Below, piece after piece: positions 3,409 through 23,474 of a DNA stretch of 37,670 bases. Numbering within the stretch: position 1 is the stretch's first letter; every line of letters begins with the position of its first letter. The notes below the pieces were generated by a model. That model did not search any database and had not been told where the DNA came from. It saw nothing but the letters and a program-made list of their open reading frames with translations. The translations under genes were made by a program, and so were the position numbers. This DNA comes from a virus. The stretch spans positions 1 to 37,670 of IMG/VR virus record IMGVR_UViG_3300046007_008174, one strand, 5' to 3'.

Positions 3409-3409
3409 T

Positions 3410-4044: not shown

Positions 4045-4070
4045 AGGAGGGGGTGGTTCCCCTCCTTTTT
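4045..4070 (+). terminator. Strong rightward intrinsic terminator
   Basis: Perfect 8-bp stem AGGAGGGG (4045-4052) / CCCCTCCT (4059-4066) with the six-base loop GTGGTT, followed by TTTTT and a further T-rich stretch. It ends the plus-strand replication/repair transcript. On the minus strand the hairpin has no T run after it, so it is not an intrinsic terminator for the converging message. Its T run overlaps the stop codon of the 1450-aa gene, showing how compact the junction is. Confidence 0.88.
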
Positions 4071-7000
4071 ATTTTATTTGATCAATATCCCAATTATAGT
4101 TATCTGCATTAAATATGTTTAATCCTACATTTTTTCCAGTACGAGTATTATTTAATGCTCTATCTATATCATAAACTGTAGAAAAGAAAGGAAGTGTTTT
4201 AGCAATTTCATTACTACCTTTATATTCACCATATTTATTTACTTCTCCTGTAGCTATACCATAACTAAATTCTGTTACTGCTTTAGTTAAATTATAAAGT
4301 TTATGTACAGATACACTACTATAACGGAAATTTTCTATTAAATCTATAGGTCTCATTCCTTCAGATAAATCTCTAAATACTTTAATCCAAGATTGAGCAA
4401 TCCATTTTTCTTCTTCATCATCGTCAAAAGCTATTGTAGCAAGTAAACCACCCATATAAGAAATAAGTAATGTAAACAAACCAGCAACAAGATCTTGTTT
4501 TTCTCTATTACTTAAAGAATCCCAATATTTTTGACCTTGAGCTGTAAATGCAGTACCTTTTATTAAAAAGTCAAACATTAATGCCATTCTACCTCTAATA
4601 ATTTGTGGTTCCCAAACCATTAATTTGTTATTATTTTGGTCTAACATTTCTTTCCATTGTCCAAAACTATAAGACATTTGTCTACTTTGAAGTAAGTTTA
4701 TTAATTGTTGAGGTACAAACCTTTTGAATTGCATTATTAATCTACCCCAAGCATATAGTTCAATAGCTCCTTTTTCATCATCACGGTAGTTACCGTGAAT
4801 CATAGCACTAATAGATTTAAATTTATTTAACTCTTCATAAGTTAAACTTGTAATTTCACTACCATCAGCTCTTTTACCCCTAACTCCACCTTCCCAAACT
4901 AATTGACCATCTTTTACAGTATAACTATCATATAACGATTTACCGTTATGTTTGTTATGTAACATTAAAGCTGTAAATATTGACCCTGTACCCCAATCTT
5001 CAAATATTGAATGGAAGAAATACAAGTAATCAGAGTTCATAAATTTATTTTTTTCAGATATTAGTTTTGATTTTATAACTCTAAAATCATAAGCATCCGG
5101 TAAATAGTTATACTGTTTTAGTAATAAATGAAGTTTGTTTTCTTCTTCTTTACCTGCAATAATATCGTAATAGTATTGCATCCAAAGTTTATCAGCTTTA
5201 ATTAAATCTGATTCTGTAAAATCTAATTCTTCAGGAGGAACTCCGACTCTTTTAGCTATACTTCTAGATACTGCATTTTTATGGTTTGTCATTAAAGTAT
5301 AAACACCATTTCGTAAACCTGCAAAAGGTTTTAACCACATAGTTCCGGCTGTTACTATTTCTTTTAATCCACCTAGAATTGCATCAAAATCAAATCCGTA
5401 TTTTTCTATTTTTCTTAAAGACGAATACTTACTTTGACTAAAATCAGTTTTTCTTTTCATACCTGTAACTTCTACCATGATCCTATCATTGATAAATTGT
5501 TTATCAAATTCCCAATCATTGTTTCCAAATATTACAGATATACCATTACCTATAGCTTGTATTTTATCAAGATGTTTTTTTCTTAATAAATTTTTGGCAA
5601 ATTCTTTATATGCTCTTTCAGCATTAAATGTATAATTTCCAGTACCAATTATAGCAGCATTACCTAAAAATTTAAAAGGAAGAACTTCATTTGCATTATT
5701 AGCATAAAAATCTGTACGTAAATATTTATTTTTAAATTTATGATATTCTAATGCAGCAGTTTTACCAACACCAAAGTGTGACATATATTCTCCAAAATCC
5801 ATATAAACTCTTGGCATAAAATCTTCAGGAAGTTCTGTACCAAAATCAACTTTTGAAAACTCAGCATTATTTAACTCTTGTCCTGTAGCTGTAATAAATA
5901 CCTTTTGTTTAGCTACTTCGTTGTATAATTTTGACAACGATTCTGAAAAAAATTTGACGTATGCTTTTTGAGTTTCGGTAAGAGTATCCCATTCAGCATC
6001 TTTTTCTGTTATACGATAATAACCAATTGCTCCTGATTTATTTTTTTTAACCCACATAAAATCATATAAACCAGACCCATCAGCAGTTTTATATTTTAAT
6101 CCTATATTACCTGGTCTAGAATCGTATTCTTTCATTAGTTTTTCTTGTAACTTATCAAATTCATTAAATAAAGCTTTTTCTTCTGTTATCATTATCATTT
6201 TAGCTTTATCAATAAGCATTTTATAAGTTCTATAAATAGGATTTGACATATTACCTAACTTTCCAAAATGTCTTTTCCAAAAACCAAGTTCACTTTTTTG
6301 TTCAGTTAAATCTATACTAGCCATTCCTGCTAACTCTAATCTTTCTCTAGTTAAATCTTCTAGTTTTTGTTTATATTTATTCTTTTTATAACTAGATTTT
6401 TCTTGAATCATTCTGTTTTTAGTTAAAAGAATTTCTTTATCTAATTCTTCTATACGTTCTTGAACATTAACAGCTGATTTTTCATCAACTACAGGCATTA
6501 AAGAATATTCTAAAGGATCAAAAAGATTTTTAGCTTTCATCTTTTGATAAGCTTCCGGATTTTTATTTTTAAAAAACTCTTCAAGCATTGGTAAAAATGC
6601 TTCAAGATTTATATTATGAGTTTCTACAAGATTAGATCTATTAAGTTGTTCAATGCTTAACTGTCTAAATTTAGCAGCAGGATTATTATATTTAATCATC
6701 ATTGCCCTTAACACAACTTCAGCTTTAGCTCTATCTAATTTACTATCTATTATATTTTCTATTTGTCTAGAAAACTCATTCATTAAATAAGGTCTTAATG
6801 AATCACTTAATAGATTACCAGTTTTCCAGTCTTTGATAGATAATCTACCATCTGAGTGTTGTATAAGTCCGTCTATTGTAGTTGCAATACCCAAAGGTTC
6901 AAAAGAATATTTTATTTCAGAAAGTATTTTATCTCTTTTATCTTTATCTACCCGTGAATCTAAAGCATTAGTTCCTGTTAAAAGTAATATAGATTCAATA

Positions 7001-8421
7001 TTATCTTTTATCCAATTTAATCTTTTTAAATCTATAGCATTTTGATCAGGTTTACCTTCAGCTTCAGCTTGTATTTTTAAACTTAATTCTGTTACATCTT
7101 CACCCATTTTTTCTTTAATAGATTTATCTATAATTAAGTGGGCAATTGTACCAAAAGCTCTTGAGGTATTAAAGTCTATAAGAATTTCTCTAGTTAAATT
7201 TTCTAATGTTATTTCAGAACCGTCAGGTTGTTTTAAAACTTCTACACCAGAAGCATTTAAATTAGTGTTACCGTTTTGGAATCTTCTTTTGGCTTCTAAA
7301 GCAGCCCATTCTTCTATTGATAAACTTTTTTCTTTAGTTGATAAAACATTTCTTACCCATTCAGTAAGACGTTCATAGATTGTACCGTTTTTATCTTTAT
7401 AATTATCACCATCAATATAAAGTCCTTGAGCTCTAGATTGAGTTTGTACATCATCTAGCAAACTAAACATGGGTTGATAAGTAAATGATACAGGTAATTC
7501 TAAGTTTTCAGTATTTATTATTTGTGCAAGAGTACCTAAAGATAGTTTTGGCGGTAATATAATTGCATCTAATTTTTGTTTACCTCCTAATATTTTATAA
7601 AAGAAATTTGATAATTGGTCAAATACTTTTTTTATTAAACTTTTAGTTTCCTCAATTTTCCTTTCAGGAACATTTTTAAGTTCGTAATTCAAAAGTTGAG
7701 TTAATTTTTGAGTAACTAATTCTTTTTTAATATCGTTTACGTTTTTAGTTACTTTAGAATATCTATCAATAACAGATCTTTTTAATTCTTTATCTTGACT
7801 AGCTTCTTCATATAAATTATCAAATAATGATTTGTTATATTGGTATAAGTATTCAATAAAAGGATGTAAAAATTCCTCAATTACAGTTTCATCTGTAATT
7901 TTACCATCAATAAAGTATACAATGTTATCTAATATAAATGCATTAGCTTTGTAAGCATTTTCCCCAACCATATCTACAGCTTCTTGCATTGATATAACTT
8001 TTCTTCTAATTTTAGGAAAAAGGCTTTTCATTTTATCCAATACCTTTTGCTGAACATTAACTAGTTCTTTTCTTTCAATTGTTATTCTGTATCCTGTATC
8101 TTCATCACCATATACTCTTGCTATTATAGATTTAAAAACTTTATTAATAGTAAAAGCAGTATCTATAGCTTTTTTATACGGTAAATCTTTACCAATTACA
8201 TCACCATATTTTTCATATAAAGACTTATATTCTTCATCAATAGAAAACTGAACTTTTGGTTTTTGTATATCAGAAAGTAGTTTTTTAGCTTGTTCTACAG
8301 TAGGTATAACGGGTTCTTTAGAATCTTTGTTAAATTTAAACCAGGCATTATAAGCATCTATTTCTCCAAGAGATTTTTCAAGTTGTTTATAGGCTTCTGT
8401 ATTTTTATTAGGACAAAACAT
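4069..8421 (-). CDS. Giant virion-type protein with RecB-like nuclease domain (1450 aa)
   Basis: Probably packaged and ejected with the DNA. The N-terminus (MFCPNKNTEAYK) resembles a start segment seen in other phage giant proteins. At about 150-250 lies a zincin-like segment with EEFLHPF (H186) in place of HExxH. Residues 420-560 form a PD-(D/E)xK nuclease of the RecB/Cas4 type: H428 (FGTIAH), D517 (TTIDGL), D531-x-K533 (KDWKTG) and a following Q-containing helix. A hydrophobic segment at about 1312-1333 (VAGLFTLLISYMGGLLATIAF) is followed by an acidic DDDEEE and could enter a membrane. It begins one base after the 4337-aa gene and ends the transcript. The nuclease target (host or phage DNA) cannot be told. 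An alternative view is a purely structural inner-virion protein with a vestigial nuclease. Confidence 0.85.
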   Translation of the reverse strand: MFCPNKNTEAYKQLEKSLGEIDAYNAWFKFNKDSKEPVIPTVEQAKKLLSDIQKPKVQFSIDEEYKSLYEKYGDVIGKDLPYKKAIDTAFTINKVFKSIIARVYGDEDTGYRITIERKELVNVQQKVLDKMKSLFPKIRRKVISMQEAVDMVGENAYKANAFILDNIVYFIDGKITDETVIEEFLHPFIEYLYQYNKSLFDNLYEEASQDKELKRSVIDRYSKVTKNVNDIKKELVTQKLTQLLNYELKNVPERKIEETKSLIKKVFDQLSNFFYKILGGKQKLDAIILPPKLSLGTLAQIINTENLELPVSFTYQPMFSLLDDVQTQSRAQGLYIDGDNYKDKNGTIYERLTEWVRNVLSTKEKSLSIEEWAALEAKRRFQNGNTNLNASGVEVLKQPDGSEITLENLTREILIDFNTSRAFGTIAHLIIDKSIKEKMGEDVTELSLKIQAEAEGKPDQNAIDLKRLNWIKDNIESILLLTGTNALDSRVDKDKRDKILSEIKYSFEPLGIATTIDGLIQHSDGRLSIKDWKTGNLLSDSLRPYLMNEFSRQIENIIDSKLDRAKAEVVLRAMMIKYNNPAAKFRQLSIEQLNRSNLVETHNINLEAFLPMLEEFFKNKNPEAYQKMKAKNLFDPLEYSLMPVVDEKSAVNVQERIEELDKEILLTKNRMIQEKSSYKKNKYKQKLEDLTRERLELAGMASIDLTEQKSELGFWKRHFGKLGNMSNPIYRTYKMLIDKAKMIMITEEKALFNEFDKLQEKLMKEYDSRPGNIGLKYKTADGSGLYDFMWVKKNKSGAIGYYRITEKDAEWDTLTETQKAYVKFFSESLSKLYNEVAKQKVFITATGQELNNAEFSKVDFGTELPEDFMPRVYMDFGEYMSHFGVGKTAALEYHKFKNKYLRTDFYANNANEVLPFKFLGNAAIIGTGNYTFNAERAYKEFAKNLLRKKHLDKIQAIGNGISVIFGNNDWEFDKQFINDRIMVEVTGMKRKTDFSQSKYSSLRKIEKYGFDFDAILGGLKEIVTAGTMWLKPFAGLRNGVYTLMTNHKNAVSRSIAKRVGVPPEELDFTESDLIKADKLWMQYYYDIIAGKEEENKLHLLLKQYNYLPDAYDFRVIKSKLISEKNKFMNSDYLYFFHSIFEDWGTGSIFTALMLHNKHNGKSLYDSYTVKDGQLVWEGGVRGKRADGSEITSLTYEELNKFKSISAMIHGNYRDDEKGAIELYAWGRLIMQFKRFVPQQLINLLQSRQMSYSFGQWKEMLDQNNNKLMVWEPQIIRGRMALMFDFLIKGTAFTAQGQKYWDSLSNREKQDLVAGLFTLLISYMGGLLATIAFDDDEEEKWIAQSWIKVFRDLSEGMRPIDLIENFRYSSVSVHKLYNLTKAVTEFSYGIATGEVNKYGEYKGSNEIAKTLPFFSTVYDIDRALNNTRTGKNVGLNIFNADNYNWDIDQIK

Positions 8422-8422
8422 A

Positions 8423-11400
8423 TTAGCATTTATTTTTTATTTTATGTAAAGCTGCTTCTGGAATATATCCTTCAACCAAAAGATCTTGAAATTCTTTAGA
8501 ATCTAATATTTCCTGATCAGTTTGAACGGTACTAACTTCAACTTTATTTGTAACAGTATAAAGAGTTTTACCAGACTTATCTACCTGAGCATCAGATATT
8601 TCAGTTTCAACCATATTTATTCTTGTATAATCAGCAAAGTTAACCATTCTAACCTTTTGTCCAACATTAAATTGTCTAGTGTCTAAGAATGTATCATTGT
8701 TAACATTTTTAACAGAAACTATAGGAACTCCTTTTTCAAAAGCTTTATCTATTTTATAGTATCCAACTAAAATATTTGGACTAAAAGCATAGCCTTTTTT
8801 ATCTTTAGTATCTATAATTCTATTATATCTTAATTGTTCTGAAGTTAAAGAAGCTTTGTCAATATAATACAGAGTATCAAAAACTTTTACAAAATAGCTA
8901 ACTTCAACATTTTCTTTATTTGGTATACGAATAACTCCTGTTGCTTCATCTTTTTCAAACTCATCTTTCTTTAAAAACTTAACATTGTCCATATTGTTTA
9001 TAGCAAATTGTAACAAGAAGTTTTCTTCTAATCTTTTTAACATGTCTTTATACATTACAGGATTAACACTAAGTCCATTCATGTAACGATTAAACTCTAG
9101 CATTAAAGGTTCATACATTTCAGAAGGTATAATAAGAGAATAATTAGTAACTCCAAATCTTAAACCTGATTTAATTACTGCATATTTTATAAATTCATAT
9201 TGTAATTTAGTAAATTTATTATCTGGTAAATCACTTAATTCTTTAAAAGCTAATTCATAAGTAATCATATCAGTTTGGTCCATATTTTTAGCAACATCAA
9301 ATCTCCATTCTCTAGTTTTATTGTTCCAATAAAGTTTCTTTAAAAATGCATTTTCAGGATACATTTTTTTAAGTTTTCTTACTTCGTCACTAAATCTATT
9401 TAAAAATGCATCCATACCAGTATAAGTAGTACCATCTTCTTTAGTATATTCTTCTTCGTTATTTACATCATTATCTATAATATAACCCTCTTTAGTTTTA
9501 TACTTTAATCCTGTCAAGAAGTAATTCATCAAACTTTCTCCTACAAGACTTTCATCTTGATAGGTTTTTTTAGTTCTTAAATTAGCCATTTTAACAGTAG
9601 CATCAGATGAAATAGGAACTTCATAACTTGCAAAAAGATTTTTAGCAAACTCTTGAATTACAGGGTTGTATTGGAAAAACAAGTATTCTGTTTTAGTTTT
9701 TAAAGTTAATAATACTTTAAATGCAGCTTTAATATGTGGAAGTTTTACAGGATCTACATTTTCAAATACCATTTGAGGAGTTGTTTTTGCTTCTTTATCT
9801 TTAGCATCATAGTTATATGATATAGTGTCTATTTCATCTACTACTGCTTTAACAGTAGGATAATCAATAGGCATACTCTTTAATATACTATAAGCCGTAA
9901 CACCTTTGGCAATAGAACCGTTTATTGATTCAGCTTTAAATATTAATTGTTTAGCTACAGCTAATTGAAACATCATTTGATCTTTATCAGCAAACAAATC
10001 TTTCTTTGTAGCTTCTTCAAGTTTTTCTGAAGTTATTTCAATTTTTTCAACTTGCTCCATAAGATCATCAAAATCTTCTTTAGTTACAAGTTGTAATCTT
10101 GATTTAATTTCATCTAGAAAATTATAGTATCCTTTGTTAAAACTTTTTGATGAACTAATATATTGAGATACAGGTTGTATCATTGTTCTAACAACATCTT
10201 TTAAAGGTATACCCATAGCTACCATAGATACTGCTGCTCCACCTAAATTATTAGTAAAACCTATAATAGGTAAAATTTGTTCTTTTACATTATCAATAGC
10301 AGCATTTACTAATGAGTCTATAGTTTCTGTAATAAGAGGTTGGTTTTTAACAGGTTTACCTTCTTTATCATAGTTAACAGTAATTTCTTTTCCTTTTTCT
10401 CTATAGTTAAAATCATCATACGTTTCACCATTTAAAGTAATATGATAGTTTTCTTTTAACTTAGGATTTTTACCGTCAACAGTAGACTGGAAATAATAAG
10501 CTATAACTTTAGCCATATTAGCATAAACACCTGTAAGTTTTGTACCGCTAAAATTATCTTTATGCATTAGCATTTGATCATTTAAATCGTACAAATTACG
10601 TTTACTAAATATTATAGCATTACGTTTTTCTTCCCATTCTTTTACAGCATTTTGATATAATTTTAAAGTAGTATAATTTTTATACTCAGGTTTAGGTTCA
10701 TTAAAACCTTTTAATCTTGCAACTAAATCAAAAGCAGATTCATCTTCAATACCCATTCCTTTAAACCTATCCATACTAATAGGTGACATCATTAAATCTT
10801 CATTAACTTTAGAAGTAGTTACTTTAATAAATGATTCAACAATTACATTTTTATAATATAATTCACGTAAATCATTTAACTGATCTAGTTTTTTTTCTAA
10901 TTGAATCCGTGTTGCATTATTTAAAGCTTCTCTTGCAATATTTACTTGAGCCCTTAAATTATTTCTTTCTGATTCAATCTTTTTAATAAAGTTTGGATCA
11001 ATATTAGTTCCTTTATAACCAACAGGAGTATTAGCTTTATACATTACATTACCTTCAGAATCTACTACATCTTTGTTGTAAAGTCCTCTACGCATTACAT
11101 AAAGTTTATCTACGTCATAGTCAGAACCGTGGAAGAATACAATTTCTTTAGGAGCAATAATTACGTTTTTGTTATTAGGATAAAATCCTACTACTTTAAT
11201 TGGAACAGCAGAGTGTAATTCTGTTGAAGGAATACGAAAACCTAATTGGGTATCAAAAAGTATTTTATCTCCAACTTTAAATTGATCTTTCCAAAAATCA
11301 GGTAAAATTACTTCAGCAAATCCATCAGCATCTCTCCATTTTAAATCACGTTTTACTAAATTACCATCTTTATCGGTAAATTCAGCAGTGCCATAAGCTG

Positions 11401-14400
11401 ATTGCAATACCAGCCCTCCTCCAGGAATACGTATACCAACAGTGGCTTTTGAGAAAATAGATGCCATGTTTGTAATTGCTTTCTTTACTAAGAAAGGTGT
11501 ATTTATTCCTAAATTACGATTTAAAATAAATTGGATTTGACGATTATCCCTTTCTTTAGACATTGAGTTAGCTATTTTACTTCTAACATTTTGTCTTTGT
11601 AATTCTACAATTTGAGGAGATTTTTCATCAAATCTTGAGCTCATTCCAAATGATACAAGTGTGTCATATAAACCATTGTTTATTAATGATGACATTGCAT
11701 CAAATAACTCATTTGCTAATTCATTATTTTTTAAACTAAAGTTAAAGAAATAACCTAGCTGAGTAGGAAAAGCTACTTCTTCATCTTGTACGTCATGTTC
11801 TGGATTAGACTGTATTCTATAGTTTTCATTTTGTAAAGTAAGTATAGACTCAGGATTAATGATTGCTGGTAAAGTACCATCTTCATTAGGTTCAACTATT
11901 GTTTTAGGTTTACCAACTTTAACAGCTGATTCAAAGACCATTTCATCTATTTCATTAGCTACAAGTATGTCTCTTACTTGTTTTAGTTTAGGGAACATAC
12001 TAACAAGTTCATCACTTAATTCAATACATGAATATTTTACAGCTCTTGGTATACCATTTTCGTCTATTTCAAAATGTACAGGTTTAATAACAGAACCAAA
12101 ATTAAATGCTTCACCAAATCCTTCTCTTAATTCTTTTGCTCTTTTTGGTGTCATAAAACCTTGAGCATCAGTTAGATCAAAATCTTTACCCCATATTTTA
12201 GAAAATGCAATAAAATCATCTCCTAAAATACCCTTAACATCTTGTACTACAAGTGATTTATAAGTTTTTGGTAAACCAAAGTTTTTAATATTTGTTACTA
12301 ATCCTTTATATCCTGTAGCAAATGCTATTGACATACGTTTAATTACATCAAATTCATTTTTATAAAACTGTTCTGGACCAGCCATTAGTTGATTTAACTG
12401 ATGAAGATTGATGTAAAAGTTAGCATAATATAAAGAGCTAAGTAGTTTTGTTGAAACATCAAGTTGCTGATCTATTGTTAATTCAGTTAATTTATCTTCT
12501 TGAGTTTCATTTAATTTATCTACTTCTACTTCAATAGCTTTAGTAATTTTTGATTCAGGAACATGATATTTAATAACTTCATTTAGTTTTACTTTATCTA
12601 TTGGTAATTCTAAAACTGTAGGAGCTAATTCTTCTCCACGTTCCATCATTTTATCAAATACCTGTTGAGCATATTCAGAATCAGATATTCCTTTTTTACG
12701 TTCTACAAGTTTACCAAAAGCATTGTTATCAGTATTGTATTTAACTTTAGAATTTTCAAAAGTTTTTACAAATTCATTTTCTTGTTTAATAATATCTAAA
12801 ATAGCTTGTTTAATTTTAGATTCATCTAAAAAGTCAATTTCAGCACCTATAATATTAGGTTTATTTGAAATTGTAACTACTTGCTGAACATATTTTTTAC
12901 CTTTATTATCGGAGTTATGTGCTATAAAAAAGTAATGGAAGTTTCTTGCAAACCAATCACTTTCTGTTTCATTTTTATATCTAGTACCTTCTTCAGTATA
13001 TTCTCCTGTAACACCATCATAATTAATATAGTTATGAATAGTATTAAGTCCTTTTATAAAAATATTATTTTTAAAATAAGGACTGTTTAAAAACTCAGGT
13101 TTCTTTACAAAACTTTTCTCAACAAAGCTTTGAAGAGTATTAACTGCTTGAGAACCTAACGTAAACACATAAGCTATTTTGTTATCTATACGTCTATAGT
13201 TTGAAGGACGTAACTCTCCAGCAGGTTTTATTAAATATGAAGCAAGATTATTTAAACGTGATCTTTGAGTTTCAAAAATGTTATTGATAATTTCATTTGG
13301 TTGTAAATTATCATTTTCAGCTTTTTGATATTGTTTAAATATTTCTTCTAATGCATCAAAATCTTTTATTTGTGCTCCATCAGGTACTTTAATTTCATAA
13401 CCTAAAAGATTATTTGTTATTTCAATAAAAGCATTATTACGTTTAGTTTGATCAGCAGCTTTAGTTAAAGATTTAGCTTGTTTAATTTTACCTAAAGCCC
13501 AAATAATACTGTTTTTACCGTCAACTTTATTTCTAGCATTAACAACTAAATTATCAAGTATGTTATTAATTTTTGTGGTTACTTCTACATCTACAATAGC
13601 ATTTCTTAAACTTTGATTAGGATTATTTCTTTTACCTGTATAGTAACCAAAATGTACATTTTGACGATACAGTGAAGAAGCTTGAGCATTTAGTTCTGTA
13701 AATAAATTTCTATTTTGATAACTTATAAAATCAGCTGAAATTTGTTTAAGACTTTTACCAGTAGTTTTAGAAATACGGTTAAAATAATTCCAGTTACTTT
13801 CACCTTCATTTCTTCTAATACCTTTTTTATTTTCAGGAAATACATAAATATTTTTAGTTGTAAATGAAGCATCTGTAGATTTAACTTGATCTTGAATACT
13901 ATCTGAATATGCTTGATCTATAACTTCTTTAATATACTTTTCAATAACAGAAACATCTTTATTATTAGAGTATACCCTTTTAAAATAATTAAATCGTTCA
14001 GTTAAAGATTTGGATATGTTTTCCCAACTAGATGTATCAAGTCCTGAAAAAGTTTCTAATGTTACAAGATAAGCAAATCTAGGATTAACTTGAGCTTGAT
14101 CACTAGTAAAAATCATTGACAAAAACTGTTTTACTTGTTGAGAAAGTTTTTGTTCATGATTTATTTCTTCAGAGTCTTTAATATCATCTGTCCAATCTGA
14201 ACCTATTATATCTTCAGTATTTTGATTAGCTTCATTATCTTTTGGTTTAGCTTCTGTTTTAAAAGTTAAACCATTAAACATGTCTAAAGAAAGTTTATTA
14301 AAAACTTTAGAATTACTTAAAGATTTTATTGCTTGAAAATATACAACATCATCTATTTTTTGATCTTTTAACTCTTCGTATTCAGCTAAAATAGATTCAT

Positions 14401-17400
14401 ATGTTAAACGTAATAATGTATTATCGTCTTCTGGTACAGTATCTGAAGAATTAATATTTGAATATTCTTTCTTTAAGTCATCAAATGTACCAAGTATAAT
14501 TGTTTCAGCTTCTCTAAATGCTGTTACTGAACCAAAGTCTTCAATAATTTCAGCATAAGACATTTTTCTATCACTTAAAGAAACTATTTCATTAAACAAT
14601 CCACTATCAATATTATTAAAGAAAGTATTAATATCAGGTATTAAATTAACACTCATACCTAACCATTTACGAATACGGGTAAATAATATATTGAAAAAGT
14701 TTGATAATGGTTTTTTGTTTCTCCATTCTTGATATTCTTCTGCTATTCTTTCTTCAAGAGATTCTAAATCAGTATTAGGATCTAATCCAAATTCTTCAAT
14801 AGCTTTTTGGTAAACTAATCTCTTTTGAGAATCGTTTAACATCATATCAAAGATTCTATGGAACAACTCATGTCTTGCTACATTTAAGTAAGCTTTGTTA
14901 AAATCGTCTTCTAACAAATAGATTATACCATTCTGATACAATCCCCAAGATTCTTTACCTTCATTTAATGCCATCATTTGAGCAGATGTAACAAATTTTA
15001 TTTCTTCATCTGTCAATGTTTTATCTATAGATTTTAGATAAGAAACTATTTCTTTTTTATTTAAACTTTCTCCTAATTCTCTTCTAACACTTTTTAGTAA
15101 TCGTTTAGTACGTCTGGAAGGTTTAACTAATTTTTTACCTCCTGTTGGAGCTTCTTCAATAGGTTGTTCTTTAACATTATTTATTGTAACAACAGCAGAT
15201 GCAGGAGAAACACTTTCAAGACTATCTTCAAAGAACATTTCATCAATCTGACTATTGTTTATATATGCATTAGTATAATTTATAACACCACTACCATAAG
15301 TACCGTCATTAGATTCTCTTGGTACTGGTACTTGTAAAGTACTTAAATTACCTTCACTATCTGTTTCAAATATAAAATCTAAATCTTCAGGGGTTAAAGA
15401 AGAATATACTAATCTTTTTAATAATTCAGCATCATCACTTGTAGCTGTCCTGTTATATTTTTCTTCAAACTCTTTTAATATTTTTTCTTGTTTATCAACA
15501 GAATATTTAGAAAATTCAGCAATAAATTCTTCATTACTAATATTATTATACCTTGGTAAAAGAGATTTACCATAAGTAATTTTCATTCCTTTTTTATCTG
15601 TTTTTGATACTCTAATTGTTAAACCATTTACAGCATTATTAGATCTTGCTATTAAATTAAATATATGTTGAGCTTTTCCCGGTTTTCTTCTAGTAACAGT
15701 TTCTAGTTCAGTAATATCCTGTACTATTTCATTACCATTTTTTAATTTTACAGTTACATTTGAACCGTCAATTTTTGTAACTTCACCTGATACAACCTTA
15801 TCATCTATTATAAAAGGATTAATTAAATTTTTAACTTTAACACCTACTATAACTTCTTTTTGTTTTTCAGTTAAAGGTTGATGTAATAAGTTATCTATTT
15901 CTTTACGTAAAGTAAGTATATCATTAGTTAACTTAATTTCAAGTCCTGTTTTAGTTTTTATTTTTTCAATTAATTTTGGTAAATAAACATCAGAAGATGA
16001 AATTATATCAGCTATATCATCTGCTTCATTTATACCAATATCATTAAACAGCTTTGTTATCTGTTTATACTTTTCAAGAAAACTCATTAAAGGTGTTAAA
16101 AACTCGGCATGAGTATTTACATTTAATCTTTTTCTTTTCAATGCAATTACTTGAGGTGCTACTTTTTTAGTACCTTCTTGTGTAGGATTTTCAATTAGTA
16201 CATAAGGAGCTCCTGCATATATTACTCCGGTAAAACCTTGATTCTTTAACTCAGTTATTTCTTTTTCAGTAAAAATTCTAATTTTTGCCTGAGATGAATC
16301 AAAAGTTGGAGTTTTAGTAAAAAATCCTTTAAACTTATTTAAAATATTTTCCCAACTAAATGGCTGACTTACAGATGAATAAGTATATGTTAATTTAGAT
16401 GCTTGTTTAACTTTACCTTCAGCTAAAACTATAGGTGTACCAACAGGTACTAAATAACCTGTATTAATATCAGTATTAAATTTAGTTAGTTGACCTTTTT
16501 TAGCTTCTATAAGTTTAGCATATATTTTTTCTTTACCTTTTGGAGGATCATTTAATTCTGCTTCAGATAACATCCCTACTTCAATATAACCATCTGGTCT
16601 TTCAACATATACACCAATAATAGGATATTTTTGAGAAGATAATGTTGGTATATAAACTACTTTTTCTCCGGCTGTAATTGGTTCAGTTAAAACATTTCCA
16701 TCAGCATCTCTTAATCCGATAATATTTTTATTTTTTACATAAAGTAATTTAACTTCACCATCTTCAACTACAACTTCTACTTGAGGTTCTGGTTCTAAAG
16801 GATCAGGTATTATTTCTTCATCTTCTGTAAAAAATTCTTCATCTTCATCTTCAGGATCAGGTTGATCAGAAGGTGCATCTGTTGGAGGAGGAGTCGTTGG
16901 TATAACTGTTGCAGGTTTTTGAGCAGTAGGTACAAAATTACTATCTTGTTGTTTCATTTCTGCTTCCCTATCTTCTTGGAATTTTTTACGTCCTTCTTTA
17001 ATAGCTTCTATGTTTTTACTAGTTAAAGCGTTAACATTAGGATCATTAACATGTTTAATATTTAATCCTTGAACAAAAATGTAATTTGTAGCTCTTGATA
17101 AAGCTGTATACATAGCCTGGTTAAAAGGCATTATACCTGGTATTCTATTAGGATTAATATAAACATATACCTCATCTATAGTTCTACCTTGTACATCTAC
17201 ATAAGATACTACTTCAACACCAAGATTTTTAGCTTTCCATTCAGATACATCATCAGGATGAACAATAACTGCTCTGGTTTTTCCGTCAGATAAGTTTTTA
17301 GTTTTTAATTCTTTTTCAATAGCATCAGAAGCCATTGATCCATTAGCACCTAAAGTATTTTCAGGATTTGATGTAAAGTATATTTCTTCTTTACGTAAAT

Positions 17401-20400
17401 CTTTTGGTTGATCAATAAACAAATCCTGAGCATCAACAACGGCTGATACATTAGTACGATACCTAATAGTTAATGGTGTAATAACAGTATATCCACCAAA
17501 ATAAGTATCTAATATATCTTCTAAAGGAATAATAGTATTACCAAATCTAGCAGCATTATCAGTAATCTGATTAGGATCACCTAAACCTACTAGTTTTAAT
17601 TTTTTACCAGTTCTTGCATTATAATTATCTATTTCTTCAATTAGTTTTCTTACTTTAATACCTTCTATAGCATTTATTTCATCTACAATTAATAACTTTA
17701 TTTTATCAGATAAAGTACCTGATTGTAATGCTACTATCAATTCATCTAAAGATGGAGATTTACCTGTTTCTAAAGAATCATTAATAGCTTTAGATGAAAA
17801 CTCATTATGCCCTGTAGCAAATACTTCATCTGTATTAAGTTTAGATAGTTTAAAAAACCATTTAAGAACTATGTTAGTTTTACCAGTACCAGCATATCCT
17901 TTTAAATATGCCATTACTTCAGAACCACTTCTAGCTGTTGTAGATAAAAAGAATCTTAGTAAATCTCTTATTGCAAAAAGTTGTTGAGCAGATGGTACTA
18001 TATATTTATCATCTTTAGATAACTGATTTTCATTTACCGTTTCTACGACAGGATTGTATTCAGAATTTAAAGCATCAAAAAACTCTAAATATCCTAAAAC
18101 TTTTTCATGTAAATCTATTAATCTTTCAAGTTTATCAGTAGGTATTCTAGTATCAGGTTTTTCTGCAAGAATGTATTCTTTAAATTTCTGAAAATCAAAG
18201 TCTTTTAAAAAGTCCTTTTTAATTGGAGTACCACCTTTTTTAGATAAGTATTGTACAATTTTAGCAAAAGCTAATTTAGGATTTTTAGGATATACTTGAT
18301 TAATATAAGAAACTAATTCTTTTAAAGAAGTATTAGATTGTAATGAAGTAACTACACCAACAAATTCATTTGTAACTTTATTTGCTTCGTTTAATAGAAA
18401 TAATTTTTGTTCATCACTTAATAAACCTTTTAGCTCATATAATACATTATTAATGTATCCAATTCTTTCAATTGGTGACAAAGATTCAAGATCTTTTTCA
18501 ATATCTTTACCTATTAATGATTTAGCTAGTTCATATATTTCTTCAATTACAACACCTTTATCGTTTAAACCAATAGATGTTTTTGCTTGATTTGATTTAG
18601 AAATAGTTATTTTTTCTTGTTGCTTTTCTTTATCAGCAAGACGTTCTTTAACAACAGAAATTAATTCTTCTGTTTTAGCTAGTAAGTCTTCATATTCTTT
18701 AATAACCCCATTATAATCTGAATCAGCTTTTTCTTTAAGAACCTTAATCATATTGGTAAGATTCTTCTTTACTTGTTCTAATTGAGGTAAATTTACATAT
18801 TCTTCAGTATTACTAGCATTAAAAACAGCTGAAGAAGATTGATTTGTTAATGGTGCTAAAAGACTTTCCTTAACAGTTTTCTTATTTACATTTCTTTTAT
18901 TCTCAATAGTTAAAGAATTAATTTTATCTTTTGCTTGAGAATATGTTTCGGCAACAGTATTAATGTCTTCTTCACCTTTTAAAATTCTATCAGCTGTAGC
19001 TAATTGCTCTGGTGTAAATATAGAAGTATCACCACCATAAGTTAAAGCATCTGCTGCTTCCATGATTTTACCTAACTCATCTAACTTAGTATCTATCTGA
19101 GATTCAAGTAGTTGTTTTGTTTTATCTGTAACAGATATATTTTCAGAAAGTAAATCATTTAATATTTCAGGAGCTTCTTCTCCATCAGCTAATTTTTCTT
19201 CAATACCTTTTTCAAAAAATTCAGCATCTATATTAGCTCCTTTCATTTTAAGCTCTTGACCAAACAATTGAGAGTTTTCAAAATTTGTAAACTGTTCAAC
19301 AGTTGTATTCTCAGGATTAAAAGACTTTACTTTTTTAGTTATTGATTTTTTATAGTCTTTATTATAATATGTCTGTCCTTTATTAATATCAGATAGTTTA
19401 GCATATTCATTCATAAATTTTTCTTCTACTTGTTCAAGTTCAGAAATTTTTAAATTTAAATATGCTAACCTTCTTTGAGAATCTAAACTAGCTAAAGGAT
19501 CAGATTCTAATTGAGATTTTTCAGCAGTAAGTTTATTTTTTTCAGTTTGTACACTAGAAAGTGTTGCACCTATATTATATAATTCGTTTTTACGTTTTCT
19601 AAAGTTTGCAGCTCCTTCTTTACTAGTATCTTTAGTTAATAAATTTGCATCTAATCTTGCTGCAAGTTTTGTAAACTGAGCTACTTTATTTTTCATTGAA
19701 GCTATAGTTTGATCTTTAGTAGAAGGATCAAAACCTTCTTTTAAGAAATCTTCATCTGAAAGATTTTCTAGATATTTAATTTTATTATTTAAAAGATTTT
19801 CAGTTCCAGTATCGTAATGCATTTTTACCCATTTAGCTAAAGCAGAATCTTTTGCTAATTGAGCTAATACATCATTACCGTTTTCTTCAGCTAGTGTTGC
19901 AATATCATCAAGATATTCAATATGTTCTCTATCAGCTAAAACAGCATTAGCTTTTGTTTGATCAATTACAGGATTACCATTACCATCAAGTTTGATACGT
20001 TGTTTAACTACAGGTTTTCCATCTACTTCTTCTGTATAGTCTTCTCTTTCAAATACATCGTTATTAAATCTTAAAGCAGCTCTTCCTAAAATTGAAGCTT
20101 CTTTAGCAGCCTTTTTAGCTTCTTTATTACGATTGTAATCTATCATTCCTGATCTTCCTCCCGATAATCCACCAATTATACTTCCAAGTAACATTGATTT
20201 TTTACCTTCTTCTGTGCTAAAGTTATTTATACCTTCATTAAATATTCCAGTATAAGTATCAATATCAAAAAGACTTGAGTCAGGGTTATTTTCAAAAAAG
20301 TTTGAAACTGCTAATTGAAGGTTTTCTTCAAAAATACCTTCTCTTGCCATACCTTTAGCAGCTTCTAATAAAGTACTTCCTGTTTTACCAGCAGCAAATT

Positions 20401-21436
20401 TTTCAAAACCTTTTATTGTAGCACCAAGATAAGGTACTTTACTTGTTGGTATTTGTTTACCAAAAACAGATATATCTCCTGTAGGTATTTTCTCAATAGT
20501 TTGTAAACCTTCTGAAGTTAATCCTTTTGGAGCTGTAGCTAATCTACCTGCATTTTTCATTAAACTCTTCATTTCTAAAAAGTTAGGTCCTGCAAGTAAA
20601 GCCATGTTCGTAGCAAAAGTTTTAGCAGCAGCCGGAGCTACTTCTCTATTTATTTCAAGTTGTTGTTCAGGATTTAATGTATCAAAATTTACCCCATATC
20701 TTTCTAGAGCCTTATCTTCTCTTAGTTTATCTCTAACATCTTTAGCTTCAAACATAGATTCAGAAGCTGTTTGTAAAGCTGTAGCTGTAATCCAATCTGT
20801 TGTTTTTGCAACTTTGGCAGCATTGGCTACAGGTCTTCCTATTGCAGATAGTCCTCTAACTAATCCAGCCCCAGAACCTATAGATGATACACCCATACCT
20901 GTTAAATAAGCTGAAGCTAAAAAAGCTCCTGCATCAACAGCATCTCCTGCCCAAAAATCAGCATCTAATAAATTATTAAAAACACTAACCTTATTAGCTG
21001 CTCTGTCTTCTAAACTATTATATAAAGGTAATGATTCTTCTAAATCTTTTTCTAGATCAGTAGCTAAAACCGATAATCCATTGTCAGCTGCACCTGCAAT
21101 CCATGCAGCTAAACCTTCACCATAATTTTCAGATTTATTATCTATACCAACTAAACCACCTACAAATCCAGCTCCAGCAGCTGTTTTAGTTAGAGTTTTA
21201 CCTGCTAATCTTGTTAAACCAATTCCGGTTTTTTCCCAAAATCCTTGATTTCTACTTCTTCTGTTTTCTACTTCTTCATAAATACTTTGTCCTAAGTCTT
21301 TTGAAGAAAAAGGTATATCTTGTTCTTCAGCAGCACCAAAACCAATATTAATATTTTCAGGTGTAGGTTTTACTAAAAATTTACTCTTTTGAGTATTTTG
21401 ATTATAATCTGCTAATAATTCTTCTAGTGTAGGCAT
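8423..21436 (-). CDS. Giant multidomain virion RNA polymerase with SF1 helicase and metallopeptidase-like domain (4337 aa)
   Basis: One uninterrupted 13-kb frame. Residues about 70-230 are Ala/Gly-rich and hydrophobic; 440-1010 are long helices. An SF1 helicase spans about 1150-1460: Walker A GYAGTGKT (K1186), VDEIN (D1252), GDPNQ (about 1286), LTIRYRTN and YTALSRA (1443). A Pro/acidic linker lies at about 1511-1554, and an SH3-like stretch near 1890. HELFH (2189-2193) with a later EERIAEEY suggests a zincin. The polymerase occupies about 3040-3620. Its first barrel segment has TDAQG (D3090), KP (K3118), KYS (K3134) and ESAVKVG (from 3169). The second has RIPSTELH (R3401) and DYDVD (3439-3443), matching the RAPTLH...DFDGD order of bacterial beta-prime. 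This resembles the YonO-like virion polymerases of crAss-like phages, which transcribe early genes after ejection. It is placed between the 678- and 1450-aa genes with one-base gaps. The helicase-peptidase-polymerase fusion is unusual. Whether the chain is processed is unknown. Confidence 0.93.
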   Translation of the reverse strand: MPTLEELLADYNQNTQKSKFLVKPTPENINIGFGAAEEQDIPFSSKDLGQSIYEEVENRRSRNQGFWEKTGIGLTRLAGKTLTKTAAGAGFVGGLVGIDNKSENYGEGLAAWIAGAADNGLSVLATDLEKDLEESLPLYNSLEDRAANKVSVFNNLLDADFWAGDAVDAGAFLASAYLTGMGVSSIGSGAGLVRGLSAIGRPVANAAKVAKTTDWITATALQTASESMFEAKDVRDKLREDKALERYGVNFDTLNPEQQLEINREVAPAAAKTFATNMALLAGPNFLEMKSLMKNAGRLATAPKGLTSEGLQTIEKIPTGDISVFGKQIPTSKVPYLGATIKGFEKFAAGKTGSTLLEAAKGMAREGIFEENLQLAVSNFFENNPDSSLFDIDTYTGIFNEGINNFSTEEGKKSMLLGSIIGGLSGGRSGMIDYNRNKEAKKAAKEASILGRAALRFNNDVFEREDYTEEVDGKPVVKQRIKLDGNGNPVIDQTKANAVLADREHIEYLDDIATLAEENGNDVLAQLAKDSALAKWVKMHYDTGTENLLNNKIKYLENLSDEDFLKEGFDPSTKDQTIASMKNKVAQFTKLAARLDANLLTKDTSKEGAANFRKRKNELYNIGATLSSVQTEKNKLTAEKSQLESDPLASLDSQRRLAYLNLKISELEQVEEKFMNEYAKLSDINKGQTYYNKDYKKSITKKVKSFNPENTTVEQFTNFENSQLFGQELKMKGANIDAEFFEKGIEEKLADGEEAPEILNDLLSENISVTDKTKQLLESQIDTKLDELGKIMEAADALTYGGDTSIFTPEQLATADRILKGEEDINTVAETYSQAKDKINSLTIENKRNVNKKTVKESLLAPLTNQSSSAVFNASNTEEYVNLPQLEQVKKNLTNMIKVLKEKADSDYNGVIKEYEDLLAKTEELISVVKERLADKEKQQEKITISKSNQAKTSIGLNDKGVVIEEIYELAKSLIGKDIEKDLESLSPIERIGYINNVLYELKGLLSDEQKLFLLNEANKVTNEFVGVVTSLQSNTSLKELVSYINQVYPKNPKLAFAKIVQYLSKKGGTPIKKDFLKDFDFQKFKEYILAEKPDTRIPTDKLERLIDLHEKVLGYLEFFDALNSEYNPVVETVNENQLSKDDKYIVPSAQQLFAIRDLLRFFLSTTARSGSEVMAYLKGYAGTGKTNIVLKWFFKLSKLNTDEVFATGHNEFSSKAINDSLETGKSPSLDELIVALQSGTLSDKIKLLIVDEINAIEGIKVRKLIEEIDNYNARTGKKLKLVGLGDPNQITDNAARFGNTIIPLEDILDTYFGGYTVITPLTIRYRTNVSAVVDAQDLFIDQPKDLRKEEIYFTSNPENTLGANGSMASDAIEKELKTKNLSDGKTRAVIVHPDDVSEWKAKNLGVEVVSYVDVQGRTIDEVYVYINPNRIPGIMPFNQAMYTALSRATNYIFVQGLNIKHVNDPNVNALTSKNIEAIKEGRKKFQEDREAEMKQQDSNFVPTAQKPATVIPTTPPPTDAPSDQPDPEDEDEEFFTEDEEIIPDPLEPEPQVEVVVEDGEVKLLYVKNKNIIGLRDADGNVLTEPITAGEKVVYIPTLSSQKYPIIGVYVERPDGYIEVGMLSEAELNDPPKGKEKIYAKLIEAKKGQLTKFNTDINTGYLVPVGTPIVLAEGKVKQASKLTYTYSSVSQPFSWENILNKFKGFFTKTPTFDSSQAKIRIFTEKEITELKNQGFTGVIYAGAPYVLIENPTQEGTKKVAPQVIALKRKRLNVNTHAEFLTPLMSFLEKYKQITKLFNDIGINEADDIADIISSSDVYLPKLIEKIKTKTGLEIKLTNDILTLRKEIDNLLHQPLTEKQKEVIVGVKVKNLINPFIIDDKVVSGEVTKIDGSNVTVKLKNGNEIVQDITELETVTRRKPGKAQHIFNLIARSNNAVNGLTIRVSKTDKKGMKITYGKSLLPRYNNISNEEFIAEFSKYSVDKQEKILKEFEEKYNRTATSDDAELLKRLVYSSLTPEDLDFIFETDSEGNLSTLQVPVPRESNDGTYGSGVINYTNAYINNSQIDEMFFEDSLESVSPASAVVTINNVKEQPIEEAPTGGKKLVKPSRRTKRLLKSVRRELGESLNKKEIVSYLKSIDKTLTDEEIKFVTSAQMMALNEGKESWGLYQNGIIYLLEDDFNKAYLNVARHELFHRIFDMMLNDSQKRLVYQKAIEEFGLDPNTDLESLEERIAEEYQEWRNKKPLSNFFNILFTRIRKWLGMSVNLIPDINTFFNNIDSGLFNEIVSLSDRKMSYAEIIEDFGSVTAFREAETIILGTFDDLKKEYSNINSSDTVPEDDNTLLRLTYESILAEYEELKDQKIDDVVYFQAIKSLSNSKVFNKLSLDMFNGLTFKTEAKPKDNEANQNTEDIIGSDWTDDIKDSEEINHEQKLSQQVKQFLSMIFTSDQAQVNPRFAYLVTLETFSGLDTSSWENISKSLTERFNYFKRVYSNNKDVSVIEKYIKEVIDQAYSDSIQDQVKSTDASFTTKNIYVFPENKKGIRRNEGESNWNYFNRISKTTGKSLKQISADFISYQNRNLFTELNAQASSLYRQNVHFGYYTGKRNNPNQSLRNAIVDVEVTTKINNILDNLVVNARNKVDGKNSIIWALGKIKQAKSLTKAADQTKRNNAFIEITNNLLGYEIKVPDGAQIKDFDALEEIFKQYQKAENDNLQPNEIINNIFETQRSRLNNLASYLIKPAGELRPSNYRRIDNKIAYVFTLGSQAVNTLQSFVEKSFVKKPEFLNSPYFKNNIFIKGLNTIHNYINYDGVTGEYTEEGTRYKNETESDWFARNFHYFFIAHNSDNKGKKYVQQVVTISNKPNIIGAEIDFLDESKIKQAILDIIKQENEFVKTFENSKVKYNTDNNAFGKLVERKKGISDSEYAQQVFDKMMERGEELAPTVLELPIDKVKLNEVIKYHVPESKITKAIEVEVDKLNETQEDKLTELTIDQQLDVSTKLLSSLYYANFYINLHQLNQLMAGPEQFYKNEFDVIKRMSIAFATGYKGLVTNIKNFGLPKTYKSLVVQDVKGILGDDFIAFSKIWGKDFDLTDAQGFMTPKRAKELREGFGEAFNFGSVIKPVHFEIDENGIPRAVKYSCIELSDELVSMFPKLKQVRDILVANEIDEMVFESAVKVGKPKTIVEPNEDGTLPAIINPESILTLQNENYRIQSNPEHDVQDEEVAFPTQLGYFFNFSLKNNELANELFDAMSSLINNGLYDTLVSFGMSSRFDEKSPQIVELQRQNVRSKIANSMSKERDNRQIQFILNRNLGINTPFLVKKAITNMASIFSKATVGIRIPGGGLVLQSAYGTAEFTDKDGNLVKRDLKWRDADGFAEVILPDFWKDQFKVGDKILFDTQLGFRIPSTELHSAVPIKVVGFYPNNKNVIIAPKEIVFFHGSDYDVDKLYVMRRGLYNKDVVDSEGNVMYKANTPVGYKGTNIDPNFIKKIESERNNLRAQVNIAREALNNATRIQLEKKLDQLNDLRELYYKNVIVESFIKVTTSKVNEDLMMSPISMDRFKGMGIEDESAFDLVARLKGFNEPKPEYKNYTTLKLYQNAVKEWEEKRNAIIFSKRNLYDLNDQMLMHKDNFSGTKLTGVYANMAKVIAYYFQSTVDGKNPKLKENYHITLNGETYDDFNYREKGKEITVNYDKEGKPVKNQPLITETIDSLVNAAIDNVKEQILPIIGFTNNLGGAAVSMVAMGIPLKDVVRTMIQPVSQYISSSKSFNKGYYNFLDEIKSRLQLVTKEDFDDLMEQVEKIEITSEKLEEATKKDLFADKDQMMFQLAVAKQLIFKAESINGSIAKGVTAYSILKSMPIDYPTVKAVVDEIDTISYNYDAKDKEAKTTPQMVFENVDPVKLPHIKAAFKVLLTLKTKTEYLFFQYNPVIQEFAKNLFASYEVPISSDATVKMANLRTKKTYQDESLVGESLMNYFLTGLKYKTKEGYIIDNDVNNEEEYTKEDGTTYTGMDAFLNRFSDEVRKLKKMYPENAFLKKLYWNNKTREWRFDVAKNMDQTDMITYELAFKELSDLPDNKFTKLQYEFIKYAVIKSGLRFGVTNYSLIIPSEMYEPLMLEFNRYMNGLSVNPVMYKDMLKRLEENFLLQFAINNMDNVKFLKKDEFEKDEATGVIRIPNKENVEVSYFVKVFDTLYYIDKASLTSEQLRYNRIIDTKDKKGYAFSPNILVGYYKIDKAFEKGVPIVSVKNVNNDTFLDTRQFNVGQKVRMVNFADYTRINMVETEISDAQVDKSGKTLYTVTNKVEVSTVQTDQEILDSKEFQDLLVEGYIPEAALHKIKNKC

Positions 21437-21437
21437 A

Positions 21438-23474
21438 TTATTGATTTAATAATATTTGTAAATAATCTGTTACAGGATATTTTATATTAGAAGAATTATT
21501 AAATCCTTCTAACCATCTATTAAAATTGTCTGGAGAAATTGGTGCTGATTTTTTACCATTTCCTTCAACTATAACATTTCCTGAAAAATCAGAACTAACT
21601 TTTATAATTTTACCGTCTGTAGTTCTATATTCTTTTGGACTTCTACCAAATCTTGCAAAAGAAGCTAAATCATTAATTTTAGCAGCATTTGAATTTAATG
21701 TATCTGGACCTCTTTTAGCTACAATAAATTGTTTACCGCCTACATTAACCGGGTATCCTGCACCAAAATATGATAAATCTTGTTGAGCATTTTCACTATG
21801 AGCATGTGCTAAAGATCCGGGTAGAACTCTACCATTAACTTGAATAGTATTAGATTTATCAAAAATTTTACCCTGATTTATATCCCATTTATTTTTTTCA
21901 ATAGCTTCTTTTAAAGATATAGCTTCACCTGTTTCAGGATTCATTATATCGTAACCTTCAGCATTTCCGGCAGTAAATTTACCATCTTTATCTATAACAA
22001 GACCTTGATTATTTCCAAATACTCTTCTATTTAATGCTTGTTGAGCTTTTTCAGTATCTACTCTACCATCAGCTGAAACAACAGAAGGATCGGTTCTTTT
22101 TAATTCTTGTAATAATCTTGTATCACTAGTTGAAACCCATTTATATGCTGTTGGAGGAACATAATTATTATCTTTTAAAATGTTCATTATATTCCACCAT
22201 TCTCTTTCATTAATAGGTTCATTATCTCTAACTTTATTATAAAGACTATAAACATTAGCTTTATTTAATTCATTATAAAGTTTTTGTTGTTCAGGAGTTC
22301 CGTTTTTCATTTTTTCTAAATTAGCAACAGATAGTCCTGAAAATAAAAGTCTTACTTTAGGTTTATAATCTTCTTTTAAATTAAATTCATATAATCTTCC
22401 CGGTAAATAAGTTGCCCAAGATCCTTGTGCTTTTTCTGCAACATCAGATACCATTGCACTTTGTTCTCCAGGATTCATAGTACTTACATACTCATCCCAA
22501 AAAGGTTGATTATCAGATGGTTGTTGACCAAAACCATAAGCTTTTTGAGCTCCTTCTGAAGCAAATTTTTCATCATAAACTCTTTCTTTTTGTTTAAAAG
22601 ATTCTTTTTGACTAGCAGCTTCAACAGCACCTAAAACTTTTTCTTTAAATATTTTATCGTAAACCTGTTGTCTGTTTTCTTCCGGAATTTGATTTTTCCA
22701 CATATAAACATTAACGTCTTCATTTAAAGATTCCATTGCACCCGGACTACTTTTTATAACTTTTAGAAGATTATTGTAAACTTCAGGAGCTTTAACTTCA
22801 CTAATTTTTTGACCAGTTGTTACATCATAAACACCAGGAGCTTTAACTAAATTACCATTTTTATCATAAACAGGTGCATTAACAACTTTTAGATTACCAC
22901 TTGTATATCCTTCTGCATCTGCTTTCCAACCTTCAGCAGCACTAAAAGCAAGTTTTGTAAAATCAAAATCACTAACCATTTTAGGTGTAGTAAGTGGTTG
23001 AAACTGAAAAACTTTTCTTTCAGGATCAAATTTTGTACTTGAAATTTGTTGAGCTAATTGATTTTCATAATATTGTTTTTTAACAGGATCATTTATCTTT
23101 TCTGCTTTAGAAATCTCTTCTCTAATTTTAGCAGCTTGTTGAGCTTGATTTTCAAATAGTTTAAGATTATTAGCAGCACTTCTAGCTAAAGCTGCTGTTT
23201 GATGCCTCATATTATGGAAATCACCTCTTTCTGATATAGATTTAATTTCAGGTTCAAGAGATGTAATATAATTTCTAACCGTTTCTTTTTGTAAAGGATC
23301 AGCTATTTGTTCCGTTTGTTTAGCTAATTCTTGGAACATATTATATTGTTCGTAAGATTTGTCGTATCTGTCTTGGAGAATATCTCCTACTTTTTCAATA
23401 GCTGCAATAGGTACTTCTCTTGTTACAATGTCAATTTTAGGACCAGCAAAGTCCAAGTTAAAATTTAAAGGCAT
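21438..23474 (-). CDS. Putative virion cargo/ejection protein (678 aa)
   Basis: No enzyme motif recognised. The N-terminal 150 residues are helical, with heptad-like stretches rich in Gln, Glu and Ala (QDRYDKSYEQYNMFQELAKQ), suggesting a coiled coil. The remainder is mixed alpha/beta and includes a long Asn/Gly-rich C-terminal half. Crassvirales have a conserved protein with an LQ.RYD-type N-terminus next to the giant polymerase gene, and I place this one there by position and that motif; this is recollection, not a search. It is the first gene of the second minus-strand unit, directly behind a candidate promoter, and is followed after one base by the 4337-aa gene. The three proteins are therefore probably made in step and packaged together. 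Confidence 0.75.
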   Translation of the reverse strand: MPLNFNLDFAGPKIDIVTREVPIAAIEKVGDILQDRYDKSYEQYNMFQELAKQTEQIADPLQKETVRNYITSLEPEIKSISERGDFHNMRHQTAALARSAANNLKLFENQAQQAAKIREEISKAEKINDPVKKQYYENQLAQQISSTKFDPERKVFQFQPLTTPKMVSDFDFTKLAFSAAEGWKADAEGYTSGNLKVVNAPVYDKNGNLVKAPGVYDVTTGQKISEVKAPEVYNNLLKVIKSSPGAMESLNEDVNVYMWKNQIPEENRQQVYDKIFKEKVLGAVEAASQKESFKQKERVYDEKFASEGAQKAYGFGQQPSDNQPFWDEYVSTMNPGEQSAMVSDVAEKAQGSWATYLPGRLYEFNLKEDYKPKVRLLFSGLSVANLEKMKNGTPEQQKLYNELNKANVYSLYNKVRDNEPINEREWWNIMNILKDNNYVPPTAYKWVSTSDTRLLQELKRTDPSVVSADGRVDTEKAQQALNRRVFGNNQGLVIDKDGKFTAGNAEGYDIMNPETGEAISLKEAIEKNKWDINQGKIFDKSNTIQVNGRVLPGSLAHAHSENAQQDLSYFGAGYPVNVGGKQFIVAKRGPDTLNSNAAKINDLASFARFGRSPKEYRTTDGKIIKVSSDFSGNVIVEGNGKKSAPISPDNFNRWLEGFNNSSNIKYPVTDYLQILLNQ

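Follow-up and report, generated by a model that had tools for sequence, protein, structure and literature searches.

The virion RNA polymerase (vRNAP) of Cellulophaga phage phi14:2 produces early transcripts (PMC10136315). This protein, gp66 (PDB 6VR4), is encoded between gp67 and gp65, and the products of g065-g067 carry an MS/MS-based virion annotation in the deposited record. Three proteins of crAss001, gp47, gp49 and gp50, are virion cargo (PMC10172136); gp47 contains the conserved N-terminal domain and a zincin, and gp50 the polymerase. The uncultured cr50_1 (Suoliviridae) has a 4774-aa chain annotated as 'DNA helicase', in which a zincin, the polymerase and an SF1 helicase are joined, and next to it comes a 1386-aa gene in the gp65 position. 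Thermus phage P23-45 encodes another giant chain, gp96 (5002 aa), in which a two-barrel vRNAP is joined to another virion protein (PMC10770324). That the transcription block can encode giant polymerase chains and PD-(D/E)XK domains has been described before (PMC7886860, PMC10136315).

The DNA analysed here is a viral stretch of 37,670 nucleotides (the window), and it encodes a single 4337-aa chain with, from the N- to the C-terminus, a gp47/gp67 cargo domain, a complete SF1 helicase core, a zincin-like domain and a two-barrel vRNAP. The DxDxD polymerase core, the gp67-like domain upstream of it, the gp65-like protein downstream and the gene order are the same as in phi14:2, whereas phi14:2 uses three genes, has no helicase, and its gp67 has neither HExxH nor a detected zincin. 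The domains of crAss001 gp47 and gp50 are likewise present in the window, but gp47, gp50 and gp49 are three genes in that phage, with gp47 on the opposite strand, and a helicase was not detected. The helicase of cr50_1 belongs to another SF1 subfamily (about 500 aa) and, unlike that of the window, is C-terminal, behind the polymerase. P23-45 gp96 differs in its partner, which is the tail tape measure, and in its two-barrel branch, and a helicase is not mentioned for it in PMC10770324. The SF1B helicases Dda, RecD2 and Pif1 share the helicase core fold and motifs with the window, but they are stand-alone or repair-complex enzymes outside any polymerase chain.

The earlier note on this DNA knew crAss-like vRNAPs mainly as smaller proteins with other functions encoded separately, which is only partly right; several crassviruses have giant fusions of a gp47/gp67-like protein with the polymerase, and cr50_1 has the chain described above. 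The polymerase, the zincin and giant polymerase-zincin fusions are known crassvirus features, and it is the N-terminal SF1 helicase that stands out. The deposited records of cr50_1 and cr118_1 mention a helicase in a giant protein. In the paper texts searched, we found no description of an SF1 helicase inside a crassvirus polymerase chain, of the clade with an N-terminal helicase or of recurrent fusions; domains of these proteins are depicted in Figure 3 of PMC7886860, which may contain an earlier mention.

The giant gene and its neighbors

The features of the locus are listed in Table 1. The 13-kb frame that the earlier note described as uninterrupted, giving no strand, is open over all 4337 aa and lies on the minus strand, and the motifs were found at the residues given there: K1186, D1252 (LLIVDEIN), GDPNQ at 1286, YTALSRA at 1443, HELFH at 2189 and DYDVD at 3439. 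The possibility raised in that note that the long frame is an assembly artefact was rejected on the evidence of two other contigs. One of them, L002, covers 3961 residues of the giant frame and differs from the window at 2 of 16,405 bases; the other, L017, whose polymerase core is 53% identical to that of the window, has the same domain order in one chain.

Table 1. Coordinates of features in the window
Feature	Position	Strand	Evidence
Giant chain, 4337 aa: gp47/gp67-like N-terminal domain, SF1 helicase, zincin-like domain, virion RNA polymerase	8423..21436	-	Open frame, motifs, domain HMMs
Conserved N-terminal domain, residues 61-336, common to phi14:2 gp67 and crAss001 gp47	20429..21256	-	blastp, HMM
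SF1 helicase core, residues 1133-1475, motifs Q to VI	17012..18040	-	PF01443, motif conservation, AF2, VIA-align
Walker A GYAGTGKT, residues 1180-1187	17876..17899	-	G and GKT invariant in alignment A2
Zincin-like domain, residues 2122-2330	14447..15073	-	HMM common to 46 chains; conserved ligands; VIA-align
HELFH zinc-ligand motif, residues 2189-2193	14858..14872	-	
Two-barrel RNA polymerase core, about residues 3059-3886	9779..12262	-	Profile A4 to 6VR4; tblastn to gp66
DYDVD catalytic motif, residues 3439-3443	11108..11122	-	Sole DxDxD in the chain
1450-aa gp65/gp49-like protein	4069..8421	-	47.5% identity to the L017 equivalent; HMM g65
PD-(D/E)XK nuclease-like domain, residues 411-536 of the 1450-aa protein	6814..7191	-	Pfam PF12705 0.0012, below cut-off
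678-aa protein in place of cargo C2 (gp46)	21438..23474	-	Position only; homologues in L091, L017, L083
1783-aa protein	23566..28917	-	62-70 aa segment matching crAss001 gp45 (cargo C1) and equivalents
Gene with a match to phi14:2 g072	34192..34926	-	Match to g072 and the cr50_1 equivalent

The flanking genes follow the crassvirus order, with a tail tubular protein, a large tail protein, the protein with the gp45 segment, the 678-aa protein in the gp46 position, the giant chain and the gp65-like protein. The block order of Crassvirales was also observed (tail tubular, tail, cargo, polymerase block, convergent replication genes), with MCP, portal and TerL lying outside the window. The gp65-like gene starts one base past the stop codon of the giant gene, and in several relatives it is fused to the chain. 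Its putative PD-(D/E)XK domain gave Pfam matches above the cut-off in three relatives (L018, L022 and L025), while that of the window (PF12705, 0.0012) is below it; the alignment columns G.i.H, D, E, D and D.KtG are kept.

The N-terminal domain and the RNA polymerase

The N-terminal domain matched phi14:2 g067 in blastp with an E value of 5.5e-11 (small database), and residues 134-413 matched the N-terminus of phi14:2 gp67. The HELFH region matched the C-terminal part of gp47-type proteins in crAss001, cr128_1 and Dulem virus 41. The polymerase region gave tblastn matches to phi14:2 gp66 (4e-10) and crAss001 gp50 (2e-10). When the polymerase part of the window was compared alone with the PDB using phmmer, no match was found. 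A profile built from the window's own clade only, with gp66 left out (A4), matched PDB 6VR4, the structure of gp66, with an E value of 1.5e-44 over about 720 profile positions. The sole DxDxD motif of the chain lies in this homologous two-barrel core, so the identification as a virion polymerase holds, and the sequence places the chain in the phi14:2 gp66 family of crAss-like virion RNA polymerases. Taken together, the N-terminal, HELFH-region and polymerase matches indicate that the chain joins a gp47/gp67-type protein to a gp66/gp50-type protein.

The helicase domain

The region from 1100 to 1500 had been proposed to form an SF1 helicase. Motifs Q and I to VI and two RecA-like domains were found there by Pfam, an AlphaFold2 model and VIA-align, in agreement with the proposal. 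The match to Pfam Viral_helicase1 (PF01443) was above the cut-off, with 3.1e-5 for the whole protein and 1e-7 for the segment, and AAA_30 matched the segment with 1e-6. SF1 family matches were obtained for all 13 members of the helicase alignment, and all SF1 motifs are kept in 14 highly divergent relatives with 20-47% identity to the window. The residues that are invariant or nearly so are G-x-GKT, DE, the D and Q of GDPxQ and the arginines of motifs IV and VI. When the helicase and the N-terminal 1100 aa were compared with the phage collection, either directly as DNA or by tblastn, no match was found.

The AlphaFold2 model of the helicase has a pLDDT of 82 and a pTM of 0.79. VIA-align ranked T4 Dda first (Z 22.9, 3.3 Å over 283 residues), with Z scores of 21.7 for RecD2 and 20.8 for UvrD, and the difference between Dda and UvrD slightly favors SF1B over SF1A for the predicted structure. 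The sequence profile of the helicase matched Dda, Pif1 and RecD but not UvrD. Foldseek placed the nuclease-helicase Dna2 first and RecD high. Since SF1B-like helicases would move 5'-3' and the SF1B margin is slight, the direction of travel is a guess.

Three relatives (L025, L117 and L118) carry an intein exactly within the P-loop of the helicase (GLAG^CLSGDV...VHN^TGKT; L117:2699-3931). Splicing restores GLAGTGKT, and the intein of L117 matched Pfam intein and HNH (endonuclease) families. Inteins commonly occupy this site in working ATPases.

The zincin-like domain

The zinc ligands of the domain that was called zincin-like in the earlier note are well conserved, while its fold match is only weak. 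The zincin alignment contained 36 sequences with a mean identity of about 20%, in which H108, E109 and E148 are invariant and H112 nearly so. The third-ligand Glu is located about 40 residues downstream of HExxH and is present in all 36 sequences. The predicted model is fair (pLDDT 77); the best VIA-align Z score was 6.8, which is below the safe level, and the top rows were metallopeptidases. Foldseek gave no significant match for this model, and the zincin profile matched Pro-Pro endopeptidase weakly, with E values of about 0.1. The gp47-type protein of Intestiviridae is annotated as 'putative RNAP associated protein fused to zincin protease' in deposited genomes. Zincin-like is a reasonable name for this putative domain; it owes more to the conserved ligands and to earlier annotation of crassviruses than to the fold.

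Distribution of the helicase in crassviruses

Profile scans of IMG/VR and of a bacterial genome collection gave 133 non-redundant polymerase loci, which include deposited phages and the window. The helicase HMM matched 34 of these loci, within the polymerase frame in 27 and in an adjoining frame in the other seven. Relatives with the helicase in a separate gene include L021, L024, L026, L027, L028, L136 and L166. All 34 fell inside one polymerase clade of 41 tips, with a support of 0.87 (0.995 in the first, smaller tree). Of the seven remaining tips, six lie on contigs that stop short of the upstream region, and in L137 the helicase was detected with an E value of 1e-41 once the HMMER filters were off. 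The helicase is present in all 35 testable members of the clade. The trees were made with FastTree from about 300 columns and are rough, and we do not claim an exact number of fusion events. The combination of helicase, zincin and polymerase noticed in the window is thus kept across a whole branch of the crAss-like phages, in most members within one chain.

Very long chains for phage genes were found, with single frames of about 4900 to 6500 aa containing the helicase, the zincin, the polymerase and the gp65-like PD-(D/E)XK part in twelve loci (L018, L020, L022, L025, L099, L102, L107, L108, L114, L117, L126 and L165). The chain of L107 is complete at 6047 aa and that of L126 is at least 6497 aa, and the gp65-like PD-(D/E)XK part is fused in both. 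The frames of the polymerase block are in pieces in L034/L139, L024/L113, L134, L116 and L130, which could be due to introns, inteins, recoding or sequencing errors. Two members of the clade were binned with bacteria: L165, a 99-kb contig of a Spirochaetaceae MAG, and L166, in a Prolixibacteraceae MAG. The Spirochaetaceae binning indicates either an unusual host for a crAss-like phage or mis-binning.

Outside the clade, 29 chains with the N-terminal domain and the zincin had neither a weak helicase profile match nor a convincing Walker A. The median spacing between the two domains was 1347 residues without the helicase versus 1902 with it, about 550 aa shorter. The missing trace and the shorter interval reject the idea of the helicase as an ancient part of gp47/gp67 that has merely degraded elsewhere, and they favor its gain in the clade or its complete loss elsewhere.

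A second SF1 helicase family was found fused to the polymerase at nine further loci from scattered parts of the tree. The helicase follows the polymerase in seven of them, cr50_1 included, and precedes it in two. Loci recorded for this family are L005, L072, L065, L083, L095, L147, L158 and L161 with the helicase behind the polymerase, and L039 and L047 with the helicase in front. The window and cr50_1 helicases align as SF1 helicases in hhalign (99.3%, over the N-terminal half). Their two search profiles nevertheless remain distinct, and loci with the cr50_1 type are found in many parts of the tree; the idea of one domain that moved was rejected. Since the second family is fused at scattered loci, a helicase has probably been joined to a crassvirus polymerase more than once.

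Possible functions of the chain

The reading we favor, with a little less than even confidence, is that the virion carries a transcription machine whose SF1B-like helicase acts in cis, opening or clearing DNA ahead of transcription by the polymerase. The chain would be packed in the capsid, by analogy with phi14:2 gp65-67 and crAss001 gp47/49/50, and would cross the tail partly unfolded and then refold in the cell. There the polymerase part would make early transcripts, while the helicase joined to it, which most resembles Dda, RecD2 and Pif1 (SF1B, 5'-3'), would translocate on DNA and open or clear the duplex for the polymerase. A 5'-3' helicase on the non-template strand would travel the same way as the polymerase. 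The zincin lies between the two halves, where it may cleave or remodel the chain. The points counted for this in-cis reading are the polymerase family, the conserved SF1 motifs, the P-loop intein, the clade-wide linkage, the second SF1 fusion and the orthology to virion proteins. Several relatives encode the helicase separately, so the covalent linkage is not essential. Nor do vRNAPs in general require a helicase, since these proteins lack one in most crassviruses.

The presence of the helicase, the polymerase and the PD-(D/E)XK part on one chain in L018, L020, L022, L025 and others, the kept nuclease motifs and the Foldseek result with Dna2 first and RecD high would also fit a Dna2- or AddAB-like unit, formed by the helicase and the nuclease of the neighboring or fused gp65-like part. 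Such a unit would act on incoming phage or host DNA in end processing, recombination or counter-defence, and would ride with the polymerase for packaging and delivery only. We consider this unlikely: the order in which Foldseek ranks SF1 helicases carries little weight, VIA-align puts Dda first, the nuclease match of the window is below the Pfam cut-off, and in the clade the link of the helicase to the polymerase chain is no looser than that to the nuclease part. To the same degree we doubt a polyprotein model, in which the zincin would cleave the chain at assembly or after entry, the helicase and the polymerase would act apart, and the fusion would serve stoichiometric packaging only. The zincin does lie between the two halves, its HE and third-ligand Glu are invariant in 36 sequences, and the breaks into separate genes occur just before it (L021, L027, L028) or just after it (L024, crAss001 gp47, cr128); however, breaks at either side equally fit a simple modular boundary, the fold match is weak, and no cleavage site or product is known.

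Two further readings involve the entry of the genome. A single-chain machine for DNA entry and transcription, in which the helicase, the protease, the polymerase and in some phages the nuclease act together and pull or open the entering DNA, and in which helicases were recruited to the vRNAP more than once, seems rather improbable to us. The ejection motor suggested in the earlier note, which would have helicase and polymerase, both anchored at the cell envelope, pull the phage genome in while transcribing it, we regard as improbable. Fusions of vRNAPs, including crAss-like ones, have been proposed to couple DNA translocation with early transcription (PMC10770324), but the chain has no membrane anchor, its sequence speaks neither for nor against such a motor and gives no preference for pulling over promoter opening, and crassviruses without such a helicase also eject their genomes. 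It is hardly credible that faulty assembly or annotation produced the join of helicase and polymerase, or that the helicase is a dead relic, because the order and all catalytic motifs are kept in independent contigs and in dozens of divergent relatives; as far as sequence can tell, this refutes both.

The helicase bears on the role of the large partner proteins of the crassvirus polymerase. Its intact motifs in every testable member of one clade, and the fusion of a second helicase family to the same polymerase elsewhere, suggest that these proteins open DNA or translocate along it as part of their task. A fusion that recurs argues more strongly for functional coupling than one that occurs once.

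A variable site between convergent genes

At positions 3903-3912 of the window, between the ends of convergent genes, contig L002 contains about 193 additional bases, and the identity of contig L003 to the window changes there from near-identical to about 84%. This site is likely a recombination or insertion point. The gene at 3344-3922, at the near end of the plus-strand replication block, resembles the uracil-DNA glycosylases of crassviruses (L012, L014).
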